A stretch of 20,135 nucleotides of DNA from a virus, in IMG/VR virus record IMGVR_UViG_3300042478_001309, positions 1-20,135 of that record; one strand, given 5' to 3'. The notes under the pieces were generated by a model, which searched no databases, was not told the origin of the DNA, and saw only the letters and a list, made by a program, of their open reading frames with translations. Shown here in pieces: positions 377 through 13,835 of the stretch (its first letter is position 1; each line of letters starts with the position of its first letter). A program made the translations under genes and the position numbers.

Positions 377-817
377 ATGACTGATATCGTGGATTGGTTA
401 CGCAGCATCTTACACAATGACCGTTCTGTGGAACTGCATTGTCGGGAAGCCGCAGACGAAATTGAACGGTTGCGCGAGGAGCGTGATGAAGCGCAAACCA
501 AATACGCAAGAATCTTCAAAGGTCTTGAAGGTTCTTGTATGTCCTGCGAACCTGTCGGAGTGCTGAACCAGCAGATGGAACAGCAGATCAATCGGCTCCG
601 CAAGGAACGCGACGAGATGCACCGCGATCTACGAAAGGCTGAAACGGAATGCTCCATGCTCCGCATTGAATGTGGGGTGATTACCGCCGAGCGTGACGAG
701 GCTCGTAGGGAAATCTGTCAGTTCCGTTCCACTTCATATCCACATGACATGAAGGAAGTGTATGAAATTGCAGATTCCCGTGGTTGGGACTGCTTCAAGG
801 ATATTGACAATGCCTGA
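377..817 (+). CDS. Coiled-coil phage protein, paralogue of the next gene (146 aa)
   Basis: A hydrophilic, largely helical protein with unknown function. Residues about 20-50 and 65-115 are rich in E, R, K, L and A in coiled-coil spacing (for example CREAADEIERLREERDEA). The N-terminus (MTDIVDWLRS...) followed by EAADEIERLR is a pattern common in small phage and prophage early proteins. The C-terminus holds ERDEARREIC, then a spacer, then RGWDCFKD, which recurs almost unchanged in the next protein. GGAG lies eight bases before the ATG. The final eight bases overlap the next start codon. It does not look like a virion protein. An accessory early role is inferred from context only. Confidence 0.75.
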   Translation: MTDIVDWLRSILHNDRSVELHCREAADEIERLREERDEAQTKYARIFKGLEGSCMSCEPVGVLNQQMEQQINRLRKERDEMHRDLRKAETECSMLRIECGVITAERDEARREICQFRSTSYPHDMKEVYEIADSRGWDCFKDIDNA

Positions 818-1181
818 AAACCCTTACAACGAATTGAGCGATGACACTTTCCTAATCTATATCGCACAGAATGATTACATGATCGACGGGTATTACCTGC
901 CCGAAGGTGTGCGTCTGAACGCCGTGGCAGATGCTATTAAACGCACCGAAGCCCTACTGCGTGAGCAAACCCACAAGTCCATCGAAGCAGCGTTCGCTCT
1001 GCGTGAAGCAAAGCGTGAGCGTGACGAGGCACGACGAGAAGTGTGTGCATGGCAAAGCGGAGACACTGGCAAGAAATTTCAGGACACCGCAAAGATACGC
1101 GGATGGGATTGTTTTGAAACCAAAGAGCGTGAGGAAGCAATGGATAGACTCGCACAACTTGACGAAGAGTTGGGACTGTAA
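810..1181 (+). CDS. Coiled-coil phage protein with shared C-terminal module (123 aa)
   Basis: The frame is open from further upstream, but the ATG at 810 is preferred: AAGG precedes it and the upstream extension lies inside the previous gene. The first 50 residues (MPENPYNELSDDTFLIYIAQ...) differ from the previous protein. The rest is a charged helix, then ERDEARREVC, a short spacer and RGWDCFE, matching the previous gene's C-terminal module. This suggests tandem duplication with a diverged or swapped N-terminus. The stop overlaps the next start as TAATG, so the two coiled-coil genes and the PurA-like gene are probably translated as one coupled unit. Function unknown. Confidence 0.75.
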   Translation: MPENPYNELSDDTFLIYIAQNDYMIDGYYLPEGVRLNAVADAIKRTEALLREQTHKSIEAAFALREAKRERDEARREVCAWQSGDTGKKFQDTAKIRGWDCFETKEREEAMDRLAQLDEELGL

Positions 1182-2173
1182 TGATTGAAACTGTTGATGT
1201 GGTCTACGGTCTTGCGTGGGGTGATGAAGGCAAGGGCAAGATTGCCGCTGCTCTTGCCCCCAAATACGATTGGGTGTGCCGATGGAACGGCGGACCAAAC
1301 GCAGGACACACCGTATGGGTAAACGGCAAGAAGCACAAGACCCACATTATTCCTTCAGGCATTTTTGCAGGCAAGCGGTGTGTGATTGGTGCAGGTTGTG
1401 TAATAAACACGGACAAGTTTTTCAAAGAGATTCGGTATCTTCGCAGCGAAGGATTTGATACTTCACTTGTAAAGATTTCTCCTGCTGCACATATCATTAC
1501 CGAAGCACACATTGATTACGACAAGCGGCACTTGGGGCATCTTGGAACCACAGGGCAGGGCATTGCACCGTGCTATTCAGACAAGATGATTCGCTGCGGC
1601 AAGCGAGCAGTTGATGTGTTTGAATCCCAATGGCTGTGGGACGGAGAATTGGACGGCAAGGTGCTGTGCGAAGGCGCACAGAGCGTGTGGTTGGATATTG
1701 ACTACGGCGATTACCCGTATGTGACAAGCAGCACAACCATGCCTTACGGTGCTTGCTCTCTTGGATTTCCCACACAGAAAATTAAGCGTCTGATCGGAGT
1801 TGCAAAAGCATACGACACCAAGAGTGGTGTTGATCCGCTGTTCTCTGAATCCCTGTGGGACGATCCTGCGCTGAACAGAATTATTGAATTGGGTGGTGAA
1901 TACGGTTCAACCACAGGGCGTAAGCGATTGGTAAATTGGTTGAATCTTGATTTCCTGAAGCAATCCGTTCAAGTATCAGGTTGCACGGAATTGGTAATCA
2001 ATAAATGCGATGTGCTTAAAACTTTGGGATTGTTTAAAGTTTACAGCAGCGGTTGTCTGCGTGAATTTAAGAGTTTTTCGGAAATGCAGGCATTTATTAC
2101 TAGTGAACTAATTACTGCAAATTTTGAATACCTGCACGACATCAAGTGGTCGGGCAACGCCGAGACTATTTGA
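1181..2173 (+). CDS. purA: Compact adenylosuccinate synthetase-like enzyme (PurA/PurZ family, 330 aa)
   Basis: PurA joins IMP and aspartate using GTP to make adenylosuccinate. Phage PurZ relatives act on dGMP to make the 2-aminoadenine precursor. Visible motifs: WGDEGKGK (13-20, with Asp15 at the usual catalytic position), GGPNAGHT (37-44, catalytic His43), LGTTGQG (121-127), EGAQ (164-167), YPYVTSS (178-184), the aspartate loop TTGRKR (244-249) and NKCD (274-277), the guanine-recognition motif of GTP users. The protein is about 100 residues shorter than bacterial PurA. By spacing, about 50 residues are missing between GTTGQG and EGAQ and about 45 near the C-terminus. GTTGRG has become GTTGQG. 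The retained Asp and NKxD favour PurA-type chemistry, but the substrate (IMP or dGMP) cannot be decided here. Family assignment is firm. Confidence 0.9.
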   Translation: MIETVDVVYGLAWGDEGKGKIAAALAPKYDWVCRWNGGPNAGHTVWVNGKKHKTHIIPSGIFAGKRCVIGAGCVINTDKFFKEIRYLRSEGFDTSLVKISPAAHIITEAHIDYDKRHLGHLGTTGQGIAPCYSDKMIRCGKRAVDVFESQWLWDGELDGKVLCEGAQSVWLDIDYGDYPYVTSSTTMPYGACSLGFPTQKIKRLIGVAKAYDTKSGVDPLFSESLWDDPALNRIIELGGEYGSTTGRKRLVNWLNLDFLKQSVQVSGCTELVINKCDVLKTLGLFKVYSSGCLREFKSFSEMQAFITSELITANFEYLHDIKWSGNAETI

Positions 2174-5404: not shown

Positions 5405-5477
5405 GGGCCTATCGTCTAGTGGTCTAGGATAGGAGGCTTTCATCCTCTTGACCGGAGTTCGAATCTCCGTAGGCTCA
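5405..5477 (+). tRNA. tRNA-Glu (anticodon UUC)
   Basis: A 73-base cloverleaf: acceptor GGGCCTA with TAGGCTC (one G-U pair) and discriminator A. Anticodon stem GGAGG/CCTCT encloses loop CTTTCAT with anticodon TTC at 5439-5441. The T arm is CGGAG-TTCGAAT-CTCCG. The D arm GTCTAGTGGTCTAGGA is typical of bacterial tRNA-Glu. CCA is not encoded. It stands 21 bases before the tRNA-Met. Confidence 0.95.
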
Positions 5478-5498
5478 CTTAATCTGCGTTTGTTGTTT

Positions 5499-5571
5499 GG
5501 CGAAGTAGTTCAGATGGCAGAACAATCCTTTCATACGGGATAAGTCGTTGGTTCAATTCCAACCTTCGCCA
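5499..5571 (+). tRNA. tRNA-Met (anticodon CAU)
   Basis: A 73-base cloverleaf: acceptor GGCGAAG/CTTCGCC with discriminator A, D stem GTTC/GAAC, anticodon stem ATCCT/GGGAT around TTCATAC with CAT at 5532-5534, and T arm GTTGG-TTCAATT-CCAAC. The paired first acceptor base argues for elongator rather than initiator tRNA. A CAU tRNA modified to read Ile AUA cannot be excluded. Confidence 0.93.
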
Positions 5572-5623
5572 TTTTTCATTGTTAAGACCTAGTTCAACAC
5601 TCTTCCCAAATCAACATACCAGT

Positions 5624-5819: not shown

Positions 5820-6095
5820 GGAAGACGATGATACCGATCTTTCAAATATTCGGGACGAGATGCTAGCGGTGCTGAACCAAACCAAGTACCTGCTGTCTCT
5901 CAAATAAGTCCGATAACAGGCAGTCCCATAATCTACGGCATAGGGTGGTGGAAACAGGGATTTCCGTGCTGTACAGCCGCCGTGGATGCCCTGTGCTGCA
6001 TTTGGGGGTGCGGATAGACTGGCGGCACGGTTAAGGGGTAAAACGCCCCATTCCTTCTGCAAAACCGTTTAAACAGAAATCGCATTATTTCAGCG
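5820..6095 (+). other. Structured stretch without a convincing gene
   Basis: The only open frame of note runs to TAA at 5905-5907 and would give about 32 residues from a TTG at 5809, with no ribosome binding site. From 5908 on the DNA is GC-rich and full of potential stems: GGAAA/TTTCC (5951-5964), ACAGGG/CCCTGT (5954-5959 and 5989-5994), CCGTG plus CCGCC pairing with GGCGG plus CACGG (5964-5981 with 6021-6030), and GGGG/CCCC (6035-6049). No T-arm motif of a tRNA is present. It lies downstream of a late element, so a phage-encoded structured RNA is a reasonable hypothesis. No known RNA family is recognised. Confidence 0.35.
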
Positions 6096-6114
6096 TTGAC
6101 AACGCGGTTTTTGC
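6059..6114 (+). repeat. Inverted repeat overlapping a promoter and a terminator-like hairpin
   Basis: GCAAAACCG (6059-6067) pairs with CGGTTTTTGC (6105-6114) with one bulged base. Inside lie smaller stems GAAAT/ATTTC (6076-6091) and GCGTT-GAC-AACGC (6093-6105), the latter followed by GGTTTTT, which resembles a terminator. The promoter -35 box TTGACA (6096-6101) is within this structure. Confidence 0.5.
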
Positions 6115-6123
6115 GTGTATGAT
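6096..6123 (+). promoter_or_regulatory. Sigma-70-like promoter
   Basis: TTGACA (6096-6101), a 16-base spacer and TATGAT (6118-6123) precede gene 33 by about 60 bases. This gives gene 33 an early/middle promoter in addition to the late element at 6154, consistent with a late-transcription coactivator being needed before late genes switch on. Confidence 0.7.
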
Positions 6124-6153
6124 GCTGCCAACGCATCAGTGGAATGCAGCACG

Positions 6154-6160
6154 CTAAATA
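6154..6160 (+). promoter_or_regulatory. T4-type late promoter element (CTAAATA)
   Basis: CTAAATA lies 25 bases before the preferred ATG of gene 33 (6185). A start site about six bases downstream would leave a leader of only about 18 bases that still contains AAAGG, and would exclude or bisect the alternative ATG at 6167. Confidence 0.5.
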
Positions 6161-6184
6161 TGACGCATGAACGAAAGGTTGGAT

Positions 6185-6400
6185 ATGGAAGTAAACAATG
6201 CACGGTTTCCTAAAGAAGTAGAAGTACACGCTCAAAAATATGGAGTTTCGTATATTGACTCCGTGATTGCGGTGTGTGAGCGGTACGGGATTGAACCCCA
6301 AGTAGCCGCTAAATTCCTGAACAAGCCCATAATTGAAAAGATACGGGCTGAAGGACAGAATTTGAATCTGCTTCCCAAGAAGGCAAAACTTCCTATTTGA
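6185..6400 (+). CDS. 33: Late promoter coactivator, gp33-like (71 aa)
   Basis: T4 gp33 binds the RNA polymerase beta flap and links it to the sliding clamp, allowing the sigma-like gp55 to fire late promoters. The protein here is compact and helical: HAQKYGVSYIDSVIAVCERY, IEPQVAAKFLNKPIIEKI and a C-terminus NLNLLPKKAKLPI, which resembles the gp33 of T4-like marine phages. It is shorter than T4 gp33 (about 112 aa). ATG 6185 is chosen because AAAGG lies six bases upstream; ATG 6167 would add six residues but has no ribosome binding site and sits at the expected late start site. Its position directly before gene 32 and the many TAAATA elements in the window fit this role. Confidence 0.75.
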   Translation: MEVNNARFPKEVEVHAQKYGVSYIDSVIAVCERYGIEPQVAAKFLNKPIIEKIRAEGQNLNLLPKKAKLPI

Positions 6401-6403
6401 CAC

Positions 6404-6443
6404 TTGACAAGCCGTAGGTATTGGGGTATATTGCTCCTAAATA
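6404..6443 (+). promoter_or_regulatory. Tandem sigma-70-like and late promoters for gene 32
   Basis: TTGACA (6404-6409), a 17-base spacer and TATATT (6427-6432) form a host-type promoter. Immediately after is the extended late element CTCCTAAATA (6434-6443). AGGTATT (6415-6421) and AATACCT (6440-6446) are inverted repeats spanning both. Gene 32 begins about 60 bases downstream, so its leader could be a regulatory target. Confidence 0.7.
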
Positions 6444-6505
6444 CCTGTGTCTGAATTGTTCGTCAACACATCAACACACAGTACAAATAGTACAAGGAGA
6501 TACGC

Positions 6506-7453
6506 ATGAGTTTCAAGGATATGAAGAGCCGTTCCAAGTCGCCCACTTCCTACCAGTCCCTTGCGGCTGAAATGGAAAAACTGAACAAGCGTTCAGAGTC
6601 CTACAAGGACGACCGATTTTGGAAGCCCGCACTAGACAAGACTTCTAACGGATACGCGGTGATCCGCTTCCTACCTGCGGTTGAAGGTGAAGACCTGCCG
6701 TGGGCACGAGTGTGGAATCACGGTTTCCGTGGTCCGGGTGGTTGGTACATTGAGAATTCGCTCACCACCATTGGTCTAAAGGATCCGGTTTCGGAACTGA
6801 ATTCGCAGTTGTGGAACAGCGGTAGCGACGAGGACAAGAAGTTGGCTCGTGACCGCAAGCGTCGCCTGTCGTATGTCAGCAACATTCTTGTGGTCAGCGA
6901 TCCCAAGAATCCTGAAAACGAGGGCAAGGTGTTCCTGTTCCGTTACGGCAAGAAGATTTTTGAGAAGATTCAGAGTGCCATGAATCCTGAATATCAGGAC
7001 GAGAAGCCGCTGAACCCATTTGATTTTTGGGGTGGCGCAGACTTCAAGTTGAAGATTCGTCAGGTGGACGGCTATGTGAACTACGACCGCAGCGAGTTCG
7101 CTGAATCTGCTCCGCTAATGGGTGGAGACGACAAGGCTCTTGAGGAGTTGTGGAAGAAGCAGCATCCTCTCAAGGAGTTTACTGATCCCAAGAATTTCAA
7201 GTCTTACGATGAGTTGAAGACACGGCTCCACGAGATTCTCGGTGGTGATATCCGTGCGTCTGTCAACGAATCCGCTGCGAAGGGTGGTGCGGAAACTGCC
7301 TCTTTTGATGATGAAGACGAAACCCCGCGTCCCCAGACGCGCAAGCCTGTGGCTGCTCCTGCTCCCAATAAGGAGCAGAAGCGTGTGGTGGAGTCTAGTG
7401 ATGACTCGGAGGACGCGCTGTCGTACTTTGAGAAGTTGGCAGGCGACGAGTAA
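6506..7453 (+). CDS. 32: Single-stranded DNA binding protein gp32 (315 aa)
   Basis: gp32 coats single-stranded DNA during replication, recombination and repair. The start has AAGGAG. The basic, Ser/Thr-rich N-terminus (MKSRSKSPTSYQSLA) corresponds to the cooperative-binding arm with its LAST-like motif. The core OB-type domain shows RFWKPALDKTSNGYAVIRFL, WYIENSLTTIG, NILVVSDPKNPENEGKVF and FRYGKKIFEKI, close to known gp32 proteins. The C-terminal tail from about residue 265 is acidic and Pro/Ala-rich (FDDEDET, SSDDSEDALSYFEKLAGDE), the partner-binding tail. The protein has no cysteine at all, so the zinc site of T4 gp32 is absent, with ENSLTTIG-type sequence in that region. Flanked by dual promoters and a strong terminator. 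Confidence 0.95.
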   Translation: MSFKDMKSRSKSPTSYQSLAAEMEKLNKRSESYKDDRFWKPALDKTSNGYAVIRFLPAVEGEDLPWARVWNHGFRGPGGWYIENSLTTIGLKDPVSELNSQLWNSGSDEDKKLARDRKRRLSYVSNILVVSDPKNPENEGKVFLFRYGKKIFEKIQSAMNPEYQDEKPLNPFDFWGGADFKLKIRQVDGYVNYDRSEFAESAPLMGGDDKALEELWKKQHPLKEFTDPKNFKSYDELKTRLHEILGGDIRASVNESAAKGGAETASFDDEDETPRPQTRKPVAAPAPNKEQKRVVESSDDSEDALSYFEKLAGDE

Positions 7454-7506: not shown

Positions 7507-9658
7507 ATAGAGATGCGCGTTCTGCGGACTTTAGAGTGGGATCGTTGTTTCGTACACCCGCTCCCGTGTTGTTGTTCACGGTAATAGCGTTGTTGGTTGT
7601 CTTGGGAGCATTGACTGCATTTACTGTGGGTGCAGGTGCGGAATCCATTTGCTTGGCTTGTTCTGCTGCATCTCGTGCGCTGTCTAGTTGCATGGTTGTT
7701 CTGCCCACATCGGTTGACGGGGTTGATGGGGGAACAATGGTTCCGCTCTCCATTGAATACATTTGAGTGTACAGACTTTGCCGCCTTGTGTTTAGTTCTG
7801 CTCGCCGTGCGTTTAGTTTATTTTGTCCTTCAATAGTTCTATATGGATTTGAAGGATCGGGGTCTTGAGCGACAACTTCTAGTTTTCGCATCTCTTCATT
7901 GATTGTGTCAATTTCTCTTTGTATTGATGCTTTTCCATTTGATGCTTCTGGAATTGCTGCGGCAGGTGTTGTTTTCTCAATTGTTCCCGCGACTGGTGGA
8001 ATTTGTTCGGGAACAGGAGGTAGAGGTGGAAGAGCAACAGCAGTCGGATCTGCTTCCATGATCTTGCTTTTGAAAAATTCTGTATCTTCTCCTGCACCAT
8101 TTTGACTCTCATAGGTTGACAATTCCATTAGTGCTTGAGTGCCAGACATTTTGCCTTCACGCACAAGTTGTGCTAACTGTCTTGGATCTGTTGCTCTTTT
8201 TGCTGTATATTCTGGAGACGATACTGCTGCTTGGTGTGCTGTTTCTATTTTCTTGTCCATTTCTGCGCGCTGTCTGTCTCTTTCCACATCTCCAAATGTC
8301 CAAGTATCAGACTCCATCATTTTATCTGCTAGATTAGTTCCAAAAAGAGTGTCAACTCCTTTGTTTACCAAGTACGCACCACCTAATCCAATTGCTGCTC
8401 CACCAAGAACTGCTCCTGCCACTGGTGCTGCTGCCGCTAATCCACCAACAACAGAAGGAGCAAATCCTGCTATCGTGCTAGCAACAGCGGGTATGTACTC
8501 TTTTATGCCACCAAGCATACTACCAATCATTCCGCTTATGCCGCCACCCTCTTTTTTAACTTCAGCCCCTCCTCCACCTAATCCCATCATTTTCTTTAGT
8601 TTTCCAAACATTCCAGCCTTGGCGTTCTCTGCTTCTCTTTTGGCTTCTTCTTTTTTCAATTCTTCTTGGGCAGGATCGTATTGGTCAACCAAAATGGATT
8701 TAATGTCTTTTACTTGGGATAGAATATTTGTTAGTGTGTCTACTACTGCCTTTCCACCAAACACTCCTGTGGATTTGCCTCCACCCATAATTTTAGACAC
8801 AGTAGTGCCACCCGGAATTGGTGGAGTTGTGTCTGCCCCACCCATCAGGGACGGCGACGGCTCTATTTCTGCTCCTCCCCGTCTGCCGTATAGGCTGGTT
8901 CGTCCTGCTTGAGAAATCTCTCCAGCCAGTGTTGAAAGGGCTTCTGCTTCTTCTTCTTTTCGTTCACGGCGGCTTTGCAGAGATCGACTTAAAATACCAC
9001 CAATGAGTGGAATTTTTGCTGCCATTCTTTCGGGAATCTTTTTGGCAAAGTCTGTTATTTTTTCTTTAGCCGCAGCCTTGACACCGCTTTCTTTGGAAAG
9101 TGGCTTTTCAATCTTGGCAATCATTTCTAGTATCTTGCCTGCAATTGCTGATTCTCTGCCACCACCTGTACCAAATACTTTGTTTGTTACCTTTTTATAG
9201 GTTTGCAGGCGTTGTAGAATTTTGCGTTTTTCTTGTACAGTTTTAGCCCGTACTGCCATTTCTCCAAGACGAACCACACTTTCAAGAATTTCATATGCAG
9301 CAGATTGATCTACGGTCTTGTCGTATCGTTTGCCAAAGATGTTTTCATTTTCAGACACCAATACTTCTGCTGTTTGGCGTAAACCGTCAAGAACAGCGTC
9401 TTGAAGTTCAGACTGTTCTCCTCCCAAGTCATTCATGGTTTGAAGAAGGGCTTTTCGGAAACCAGAAATTTCTTCTGTGATTTGTTCAGGTGTTACAGTT
9501 GGGCCGGCAGGAGCCGCAGCAGGTGCAGATGGTGCTGCTGTAACCGTGGTTGTTGTGGTTGTGGCAGAAGTGGTTTTGGTTTTAAAACGACCAGTCGCCG
9601 GATCTTTCTCGCTTGCTGATCGTCCTCTACCTGGCCCTTTTTTTGATTTCTTCGCCAT
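7505..9658 (-). CDS. 29: Tape-measure / tail length determinator-like protein (717 aa)
   Basis: Tape measure proteins lie inside the tail tube and set its length; in T4 this is gp29 (590 aa). Seen here: a basic, low-complexity start (KKSKKGPGRGRS, then Thr/Ala-rich to residue 55), long helical stretches (56-250 and 310-350), a strongly hydrophobic Gly/Ala segment (about 370-432, including AAIGLGGAYLV), another helical part, and a C-terminus with AITVNNNTGAGVRNN and ASL, typical of T4-like tail internal proteins. The hydrophobic segment could enter the host membrane at injection. It is last in the minus-strand block after gp26 and gp51, the hub-assembly genes. Sequence identity to gp29 is too weak to prove by eye; structure and position support the call. 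Confidence 0.65.
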   Translation of the reverse strand: MAKKSKKGPGRGRSASEKDPATGRFKTKTTSATTTTTTVTAAPSAPAAAPAGPTVTPEQITEEISGFRKALLQTMNDLGGEQSELQDAVLDGLRQTAEVLVSENENIFGKRYDKTVDQSAAYEILESVVRLGEMAVRAKTVQEKRKILQRLQTYKKVTNKVFGTGGGRESAIAGKILEMIAKIEKPLSKESGVKAAAKEKITDFAKKIPERMAAKIPLIGGILSRSLQSRRERKEEEAEALSTLAGEISQAGRTSLYGRRGGAEIEPSPSLMGGADTTPPIPGGTTVSKIMGGGKSTGVFGGKAVVDTLTNILSQVKDIKSILVDQYDPAQEELKKEEAKREAENAKAGMFGKLKKMMGLGGGGAEVKKEGGGISGMIGSMLGGIKEYIPAVASTIAGFAPSVVGGLAAAAPVAGAVLGGAAIGLGGAYLVNKGVDTLFGTNLADKMMESDTWTFGDVERDRQRAEMDKKIETAHQAAVSSPEYTAKRATDPRQLAQLVREGKMSGTQALMELSTYESQNGAGEDTEFFKSKIMEADPTAVALPPLPPVPEQIPPVAGTIEKTTPAAAIPEASNGKASIQREIDTINEEMRKLEVVAQDPDPSNPYRTIEGQNKLNARRAELNTRRQSLYTQMYSMESGTIVPPSTPSTDVGRTTMQLDSARDAAEQAKQMDSAPAPTVNAVNAPKTTNNAITVNNNTGAGVRNNDPTLKSAERASL

Positions 9659-11903: not shown

Positions 11904-12343
11904 TTCTTGTGTCGGAACAAGTCGTCTTCTGTGAGTACTTTGAATTCCCACCCACGATTAGTCGCTGCTTCTTTGGCGGCTTTCCATTTGGCACAGTTGG
12001 TGATCCAAGTTTGGGCTTCGTACAGGTAGTTTCGTGACTGCTTTTTTGGTTTCTTGGGTTCAGAACACTGCTTTTTGGGTTTTACCTCAATCAGCATAGT
12101 CTTGATTCCACCGTCTACAGTTTTCATCTCTACTATGAAATCCACAAAGTAGCGGTGTGGTTTGCGATCTAGTGGGCTGATGTACGGTATGATCACTTCT
12201 TCTGACCCCCAACGCACCACAGTTTCGCTCAAGTCGCAGTATTTCATAAATCGGCGTTCCCACATGGAGCGATACACGATTTGAGTGGGGTTGCCCATGT
12301 ACTTGGACGGGTTGGTTGGCTTAAAATATCCTTTGTAGGGCAT
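11900..12343 (-). CDS. 4: Head completion protein gp4, TnsA-like nuclease fold (147 aa)
   Basis: T4 gp4 is needed to finish the head before tail attachment and has a nuclease-like fold. The protein matches along its length: KYMGNPTQIVYRSMWERRFM, WGSEEVIIPY, HRYFVDFIVEM, MLIEVKPKKQ and TNRGWEFKVLTEDDL. Putative PD-(D/E)xK residues are Glu29, Asp68, Glu86 and Lys88. Length matches T4 gp4 (about 150 aa). It is the first gene of the minus-strand block and diverges from gp48, with only 37 bases between the two starts. In T4, gene 4 also lies next to gene 53, found nearby here on the other strand. Confidence 0.92.
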   Translation of the reverse strand: MPYKGYFKPTNPSKYMGNPTQIVYRSMWERRFMKYCDLSETVVRWGSEEVIIPYISPLDRKPHRYFVDFIVEMKTVDGGIKTMLIEVKPKKQCSEPKKPKKQSRNYLYEAQTWITNCAKWKAAKEAATNRGWEFKVLTEDDLFRHKK

Positions 12344-12350
12344 ATAGATA
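12343..12350 (+). promoter_or_regulatory. Possible late promoter element (TATAGATA)
   Basis: TATAGATA differs by one base from the T4 late consensus TATAAATA and lies 31 bases before the gp48 start, in the 37-base divergent gap. No clear element for the opposite strand is seen in the gap. AGAGG (12366-12370) serves as ribosome binding site for gp48. Confidence 0.35.
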
Positions 12351-12380
12351 TGTAGAACAGACCCAAGAGGAAATACTTAA

Positions 12381-13835
12381 ATGGCATTACCACCTATCAC
12401 TGGTCAAGGAATCGGCTCCCTCATAAAGCCACAAGAGGCATTGGAATCCGATTACACATTTGCAACAAACCGCCCGCAGAGTGGAAATATCATTCGTGAT
12501 GAATTGGTGGCTTCGCAAGGTAATGATCCAACAATCAATAAACTAGAGTCATTTCAGCCGTCCAAGCGTGGTTCACGGGAAAAGCCTCTAATTATGAAAT
12601 ATCCTGTTGATATGGGGCGTGGAGAAATTCCCCATGTCATGCAGTTCAAGGCATTTTGGAGATGGGAAAACCCTGAATTCAGACAAGCAGCCGAAAAACT
12701 TAAAGCAGAATCAGAGAACACTATTAACGAGTTGGTTGATGCTACCAATCTAGTGAACGACGGAAACTTTAATGTTGCGTCATTGTCACAGCAGGGTGGA
12801 TTGATTTCTACAAACGAATATGCGAACGCACACAAATTGCTAATGGATCCGGCTTTTGCGAATCCGTCAAATCCGTCAAATGATAATACACTAACGGATA
12901 TGCTTTCCAATCCAGAAACCCGCGAAGAAGCACGCCGACAGATGGAGCGTAATGTGCGTAGTGCAACTGATCGGGTTGAAAGTATTCAACAAGACTTTGG
13001 AAATTCCAAAGAAGCACGATTGGGTGCAACTGAAATCAGCAAAGATCCTGATTTCTTGGGAAACCGATTCAACAAACAGTTGTCTGGTGGTGCTCTAGGA
13101 GCAGTAAATTCTTTTTTGGCTATGGCAGGATTACAACAGCGCGATCCACAATACGATCAAATGGTTTCCATTTATCTTCCTGTTTGTACTCGTATAAACG
13201 GAGAAGATGCGTTTAGTTACACCGATGCAAACATGGCAATTGCAACTGGTGCTGCTGCTGCCTTCAATTCTCTGTTTAGCAGCGCATCTTTAGGAGATAA
13301 ATTAATAGAAGGTGCAAAACTAGCAGCCGTTGCTGCTGCCACTAATTCTGCAAACGGAACACCGTTGGCTGGTGTGGTTCCTGCTGTTACTGGATTGGTG
13401 CTGAATCCCCGAATAGAAAAAATGTTCAGCCAAAAAGAAATTCGTAATTTTAGTTTTTCGTGGGAACTGTATCCCCGCAACCAAGACGAAGTAAACACCA
13501 TCAAGAATATCATAGACACTTTCCGATACCATTCACATCCATCCCGAACAAGCGAAGGCGGAAACGAACTAGATCCTCAAATCATGCTTCGCGTTCCTGC
13601 CGAATTCACAATCAAGTTCTTGTCTGCAAGCGGAACACGCGGAGAAAACGGATTCGTGGAAAACGAATACATTCCCAAGATTTCTAGGTGTGTGCTAACA
13701 GGCATCGGCGTTGATTACACACCAAACGGTGTGTTTAGCACACTGCCAGATAACTCGCCCACAGGTTATGTGCTTACTCTCTCGTTCTCTGAAATTGCTC
13801 AACTCACCCGTCAGGATGTGGAGGTTGGCTACTAA
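12381..13835 (+). CDS. 48: Baseplate tail-tube cap gp48 (484 aa)
   Basis: gp48 sits on the baseplate hub and forms the platform from which the tail tube grows. The C-terminal half is diagnostic: NPRIEKMFSQKEIRNFSFSW, ELYPRNQDEVNTIKNII, FRYHSHPS, MLRVPAEFTIKFLS, IPKISRCVLTGIGVDYTPN and YVLTLSFSEIAQLTRQDV. The N-terminal part includes PVDMGRGEIPHVMQF and a long helical insert (about 85-230) rich in Gln, Asn and Glu. An Ala-rich segment lies around residues 285-335. T4 gp48 is 364 aa, so the insert accounts for most of the extra length. It ends at TAATG overlap with gp53. Confidence 0.92.
   Translation: MALPPITGQGIGSLIKPQEALESDYTFATNRPQSGNIIRDELVASQGNDPTINKLESFQPSKRGSREKPLIMKYPVDMGRGEIPHVMQFKAFWRWENPEFRQAAEKLKAESENTINELVDATNLVNDGNFNVASLSQQGGLISTNEYANAHKLLMDPAFANPSNPSNDNTLTDMLSNPETREEARRQMERNVRSATDRVESIQQDFGNSKEARLGATEISKDPDFLGNRFNKQLSGGALGAVNSFLAMAGLQQRDPQYDQMVSIYLPVCTRINGEDAFSYTDANMAIATGAAAAFNSLFSSASLGDKLIEGAKLAAVAAATNSANGTPLAGVVPAVTGLVLNPRIEKMFSQKEIRNFSFSWELYPRNQDEVNTIKNIIDTFRYHSHPSRTSEGGNELDPQIMLRVPAEFTIKFLSASGTRGENGFVENEYIPKISRCVLTGIGVDYTPNGVFSTLPDNSPTGYVLTLSFSEIAQLTRQDVEVGY

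Follow-up and report, generated by a model that had tools for sequence, protein, structure and literature searches.

The gene at positions 1181 to 2173 of the window (the whole stretch of DNA analysed, a genome fragment of 20,135 bp and of T4-like phage origin) encodes a compact adenylosuccinate synthetase (PurA) that, judged by its sequence, is an enzyme of ordinary PurA chemistry and not a Z-base enzyme. Paired with a GMP reductase that the phage encodes upstream, it would form a one-way guanine-to-adenine nucleotide shunt feeding ATP and dATP to phage DNA synthesis. Both activities, the substrate, the direction of flux and the benefit are predicted, and this reading is given a probability of about 0.7. 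The features used below are as follows (residue equivalents are to E. coli PurA).

L004:5198-6259, ending 441 bp left of window base 1: guaC (GMP reductase), placed by the overlap of contig L004 with the window
762..1181, + strand: small ORF immediately 5' of purA, its stop sharing one base with the purA start (TAATG)
1181..2173, + strand: purA, compact adenylosuccinate synthetase, 330 aa (Pfam PF00709, NCBIfam PRK01117 above PurZ NF038379, PDB profile search and Foldseek)
1220..1240, + strand: GDEGKGK phosphate loop with the catalytic base D15 (Asp13)
1307..1309, + strand: H43 (His41), catalytic acid, invariant in the alignment
1547..1561, + strand: TTGQG IMP loop; T124 (Thr129) is kept and Q126 replaces R131 (alignment)
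1820..1828, + strand: K214-S215-G216 ribose-contact loop; Ser replaces Val273 (alignment; role of the Val from PMC8342488)
1910..1927, + strand: TTGRKR aspartate loop; R247 (R303) and R249 (R305) are invariant in the alignment
2000..2011, + strand: NKCD guanine-specificity motif; K275 (K331) and D277 (D333) are invariant in the alignment

The purA gene and its product

The reading frame had been placed exactly in the initial annotation. Its product matched the Pfam family Adenylsucc_synt (PF00709) at 293 bits (E 4e-87), past the gathering score of 27, and an AlphaFold model built with 47 viral sequences as input reached a mean pLDDT of 85 and a pTM of 0.86. Pairs of close relatives gave dN/dS values of ~0.03-0.13 for purA, which indicates purifying selection. 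Downstream in the window lie genes for a gp32-type single-strand DNA-binding protein, the tail tube, the tube cap and the baseplate hub; tRNA genes were located at 288-361 (tRNA-Lys), 5405-5478 (tRNA-Glu) and 5498-5572 (tRNA-Met).

The one-base overlap between the small ORF and purA probably couples their translation. No PHROG match was found for the small ORF. Small ORFs of differing sequence also end at the purA start in two relatives (L005:9624-10004 and L006:9672-10004), and all three have the tail RLAxLDEELGL in common, perhaps partly because the ribosome-binding site of purA lies inside it.

The two large gaps relative to bacterial PurA, put at about 50 and 45 residues from the sequence alone, were recovered by alignment with the E. 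coli enzyme: residues 156-199 and 207-214 are absent before EGAQ (52 aa), and residues 349-381, 404-406 and 423-431 towards the C-terminal end (45 aa). The identical two large segments are absent from archaeal PurA and from PurZ/PurZ0, so compactness is not specific to any of these groups. Short length as a sign of PurZ was ruled out, the functional archaeal enzymes having equal deletions.

Placement in the PurA family

Close homologues are frequent in viral contigs; 98 were confirmed and 80 were kept (56-100% identity); the GC content of purA loci ran from 27 to 49%. When 84,980 species genomes were scanned, the best cellular proteins among the matches listed were 34-41% identical. On these relationships the window PurA is a member of a compact PurA clade that is found only in viruses and spans at least 80 contigs. 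A recent origin by transfer out of a cellular host was rejected, no close cellular homologue being present among the matches listed. PurA homologues are already known from giant viruses.

The window protein scored 281 bits against the NCBIfam model of bacterial PurA (PRK01117), 163 against the archaeal model (PRK04293) and 92.8 against PurZ (NF038379), for which the cut-off of 300 was not reached. The purA equivalog cut-off of 402, a naming threshold for full-length enzymes, was not reached either (281 bits), because the protein is short and ~100 model residues are absent. In the PDB profile search and in Foldseek, bacterial and eukaryotic PurA stood at the top and PurZ/PurZ0 at the bottom; archaeal PurA ranked second by sequence profile and mid-list by fold.

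A maximum-likelihood tree of bacterial PurA, archaeal PurA, PurZ and PurZ0, as the initial annotation had proposed, was computed on 85 rows. The viral proteins formed a single clade (SH-aLRT 100) joined to bacterial PurA (99), with archaeal compact PurA and PurZ plus PurZ0 separate from it; these supports come from a quick search over long branches. In AU tests, grouping the viral proteins with PurZ (p 0.26) or with archaeal PurA (p 0.28) was not rejected. The tree thus groups the viral enzymes with bacterial PurA but leaves the PurZ grouping unrejected; it is consistent with the other evidence and does not itself settle their origin.

Compared with bacterial PurA (PRK01117, PF00709), which supplied the best sequence and fold matches, the window protein has every catalytic, aspartate-loop and guanine-motif residue that was checked, but is ~100 residues shorter and differs by three substitutions specific to the viral clade. 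Archaeal compact PurA (PRK04293; Pyrococcus horikoshii 2d7u and 5k7x) has the two large deletions in common with it and retains Asp13, whereas the archaeal rows lack the K331 that the viral clade has, the model score is the lower one, and the two groups stand apart in the quick tree, with a joint clade left unrejected by the AU test. PurZ (phiVC8, S-2L) and PurZ0 (Ghobes; 7vf6) are likewise phage-encoded and compact with a PurA fold, but differ in having Ser for Asp13, a changed K331 and a mostly changed R303; their phages carry DatZ/MazZ/DpoZ companions, and the window protein's score as a PurZ is weak.

Active-site residues

Residues were compared, in E. coli PurA numbering, across 80 viral, 80 bacterial, 12 archaeal and 10 PurZ/PurZ0 sequences. 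D13, K16, N38, H41, T129, R143, Q224, T239, R303, R305, K331 and D333 were invariant in all 80 viral relatives, and the motifs recognized beforehand (Asp15, His43, TTGRKR and NKCD in window numbering) all proved real.

Three substitutions, all near the IMP/aspartate site, are specific to the viral clade: V273S (79/80), R131Q (78/80) and Q34N (80/80). R131Q corresponds to the change of GTTGRG to GTTGQG that had been read as an altered substrate loop. The change itself is real and clade-wide; that reading did not hold, since position 131 is K/R in bacteria, T/S in archaeal PurA and K/S/Q in PurZ, and Q there is not diagnostic. A literature search on the role of Arg131 returned nothing usable. 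The exchange at position 273, overlooked in the initial annotation, is the more unusual: Val is invariant in the 80 bacterial and 12 archaeal rows and is V or I in PurZ. In PurZ this Val is so positioned that a ribose 2'-OH would collide with it, and R303, which touches O2' of IMP in PurA, is displaced (PMC8342488). Retention of R303 with loss of Val273 would therefore favour a ribonucleotide substrate. The V273S exchange offers a test of the determinants of ribose recognition in the PurA family.

The 2-aminoadenine (Z) pathway

The enzyme had been suggested to be an intermediate PurZ0-like form or base-modification enzyme, making the Z precursor from dGMP, with an ordinary nucleotide-pool PurA as the alternative; the residues, the model scores and the guaC neighbour bear out the alternative. 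What favours a PurZ0-like enzyme is that the gene is phage-encoded and compact and has a PHROG match, phrog_1211, labelled '2-aminooxy adenylosuccinate synthetase', together with the unrejected grouping with PurZ in the AU test. Against it, Asp13 is present in 80/80 viral sequences and replaced by Ser in all ten PurZ/PurZ0 references, in agreement with the earlier statement that classical PurZ lacks this Asp; Ser at this position marks PurZ and PurZ0 in 100% of 147 phage sequences (PMC12884076). K331 and D333 are kept here and at least partly replaced in PurZ (K331 is F or M in the PurZ/PurZ0 rows), the PurZ model score is some 93 bits against 300, and the quick tree joins the viral clade to bacterial PurA. 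The search for datZ, mazZ and a DpoZ-type polymerase, extended beyond the window as had been advised, found none in the relative contigs covered: DNA polymerase A and YfbR/DatZ-type genes were each found in 0/29 (31-172 kb, possibly incomplete), and a MazZ-type gene (PF04447) in 0/15, also possibly incomplete. Of five control Z-phages, four were positive in the DatZ (YfbR) search (phiVC8, S-2L, Ochrobactrum phage OH and Acinetobacter phage 53); two of them, S-2L and phage 53, were also positive for MazZ. DUF5664 (PF18909), a companion in PurZ0 phages, was found in 0/29 contigs, but a 14-genome control was silent as well, and this result is given no weight. A family B polymerase is encoded by two relatives and a Mom-like adenine-modification gene by one, which also speaks against a Z genome; altogether a PurZ0-like role is highly improbable.

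The Mom-like protein (L019:1675-2610, - strand, on an 84-kb relative of L006) belongs to an adenine-modification enzyme family (PF25680, 43.5 bits; phrog_1384), and its gene adjoins DNA methyltransferase genes. Small proteins at L006:19648-20187 and L026:4802-5143 matched DUF1599 (nucleotide modification associated domain 1) weakly, their scores falling slightly short of the gathering score. Separately, Flavobacterium phage MaF61 (L242; PQ858689, 168 kb) encodes a PurZ-type protein of 447 aa (gene 5968-7311) in which Ser stands in for Asp13 (GSSGKGK), with ribonucleotide reductase genes nearby; the phage has at most a sub-threshold DatZ match and could be an outlying Z-phage.

Since the phrog_1211 name falls on a PurA of the Asp13 type, automatic annotation would wrongly predict Z-DNA for these phages; looking at which residue occupies the Asp13 position is a fast way to tell the two kinds of enzyme apart.

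The GMP reductase neighbour

Contig L004 overlaps the window by 6741 bp with one mismatch (99.985% identical) and is taken to come from the same phage; it extends leftward, where it carries guaC. The presence of this gene so close to the window's left edge suggests that purA acts in purine interconversion. The L004 guaC copy is 80% identical to that of L005, and the products of the L005 and L006 copies passed the NCBIfam PRK05096 cut-off of 397 at 519 and 517 bits; the catalytic Cys motif GPGSVCTTR is present in the L034 and L005 enzymes.

A gene of the GMP-reductase/IMPDH family lay at most 6 kb upstream of purA at 37 of the 47 loci with full flank, was absent nearby at the other 10, and was present on 21/29 contigs of at least 31 kb. 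As a control for linkage, the window gp32 was used to find loci 12 kb or more in length; of the 46 obtained, 39 are without purA and seven have it. No guaC was found in the purA-less loci (0/39 in the stretch examined); in five of the seven purA-bearing loci none was seen, since there either the retrieved sequence or the contig itself stops close to purA.

Three types of neighbour were distinguished, each marking its own part of the PurA tree. One is E. coli-type GuaC (59% to E. coli GuaC in the L005-type copy). Another, on the opposite strand, is ~45% identical to the first and 46-49% to E. coli GuaC. The remaining type, of ~372 aa, is ~25% identical to both, as it is to GuaC and GuaB, and falls below every NCBIfam cut-off; it was found at L099:4197-5312 (with a YRGMAS motif) and, where the flank suffices, near purA throughout the L094-L109 subclade, and it may be a GMP reductase or an IMP dehydrogenase. 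Three distinct types at one place argue against a single neighbour gene carried along with purA, while common descent may account for part of the guaC-purA linkage. On L006, guanine-nucleotide sugar genes stand on both sides of the pair, a GDP-mannose 4,6-dehydratase gene (7512-8501) adjoining guaC and a GDP-fucose-synthase-like gene (12230-13135) lying beyond purA.

E. coli-type GuaC (PRK05096), which the neighbour resembles, has known examples in Caulobacter phage Cr30 and in Xanthomonas phage XacN1, GMP reductase is also annotated in the cultured phage RAS14, and a pelagimyophage GMP reductase has been reported (PMC7029224). No description of a phage guaC linked to a phage purA was found in the open-access literature, subscription journals lying mostly outside the search.

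The proposed shunt and its alternatives

In the proposed route, the phage GMP reductase would convert GMP to IMP, and the phage PurA would join IMP to aspartate, with GTP, to give adenylosuccinate. Host PurB would then release AMP, which kinases and ribonucleotide reductase would carry to ATP and dATP for phage DNA synthesis. A PurB-type lyase (PF00206) was found in 0/29 relative contigs of at least 31 kb, possibly incomplete, so the AMP step would have to fall to the host enzyme. That the pair amounts to an undescribed phage purine-interconversion module, in which a compact PurA confined to viruses and changed in its ribose-contact loop is repeatedly coupled to GMP-reductase-family genes of differing types and turns guanine into adenine nucleotides during infection, is somewhat favoured.

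The strongest competitor is a PurA that serves the nucleotide pool by itself, using IMP made by the host, with the GMP reductase beside it by coincidence or for another need. About one fifth of the full-flank loci have no such gene nearby; on L008 purA comes right after thyX and a class II ribonucleotide reductase gene, with no guaC found on 31 kb; and in Cr30, XacN1 and RAS14 the GMP reductase has no purA annotated nearby. The linkage at 37/47 loci against 0/39 in purA-less relatives, and the occupation of the same place by three distant GMPR/IMPDH-family types, make this explanation unlikely. Working instead at the deoxynucleotide level, the pair could turn dGMP from degraded host DNA into dIMP and dAMP, and degradation of host DNA is common among T4-like phages; GMP reductases, on the other hand, are known for ribonucleotide substrates. 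The residues divide on this point: the Ser found in 79/80 replaces a residue lying against the ribose 2' position, which would fit a changed ribose pocket, but the IMP O2' contact R303, displaced in PurZ, is invariant here (PMC8342488), and the deoxynucleotide route is improbable. A GMP reductase with a GTP-consuming PurA would also reduce guanine pools, and the shunt might serve mainly to drain them, blunting (p)ppGpp or cyclic-dinucleotide signalling as a counter-defence; neither defence nor signalling genes were seen linked to the pair, and the L008 purA sits among genes of dNTP synthesis, so that this purpose has very little likelihood.

Known phage takeover of nucleotide supply involves mostly reductases, thymidylate synthases and dUTPases. 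The virus-only PurA, standing mostly beside a phage GMP reductase, suggests that these T4-like phages probably encode a guanine-to-adenine nucleotide route of their own. If the guanine-to-adenine shunt is real, this purine-converting gene pair would represent a directed shift of the purine ratio, one that could be checked by simple assays.
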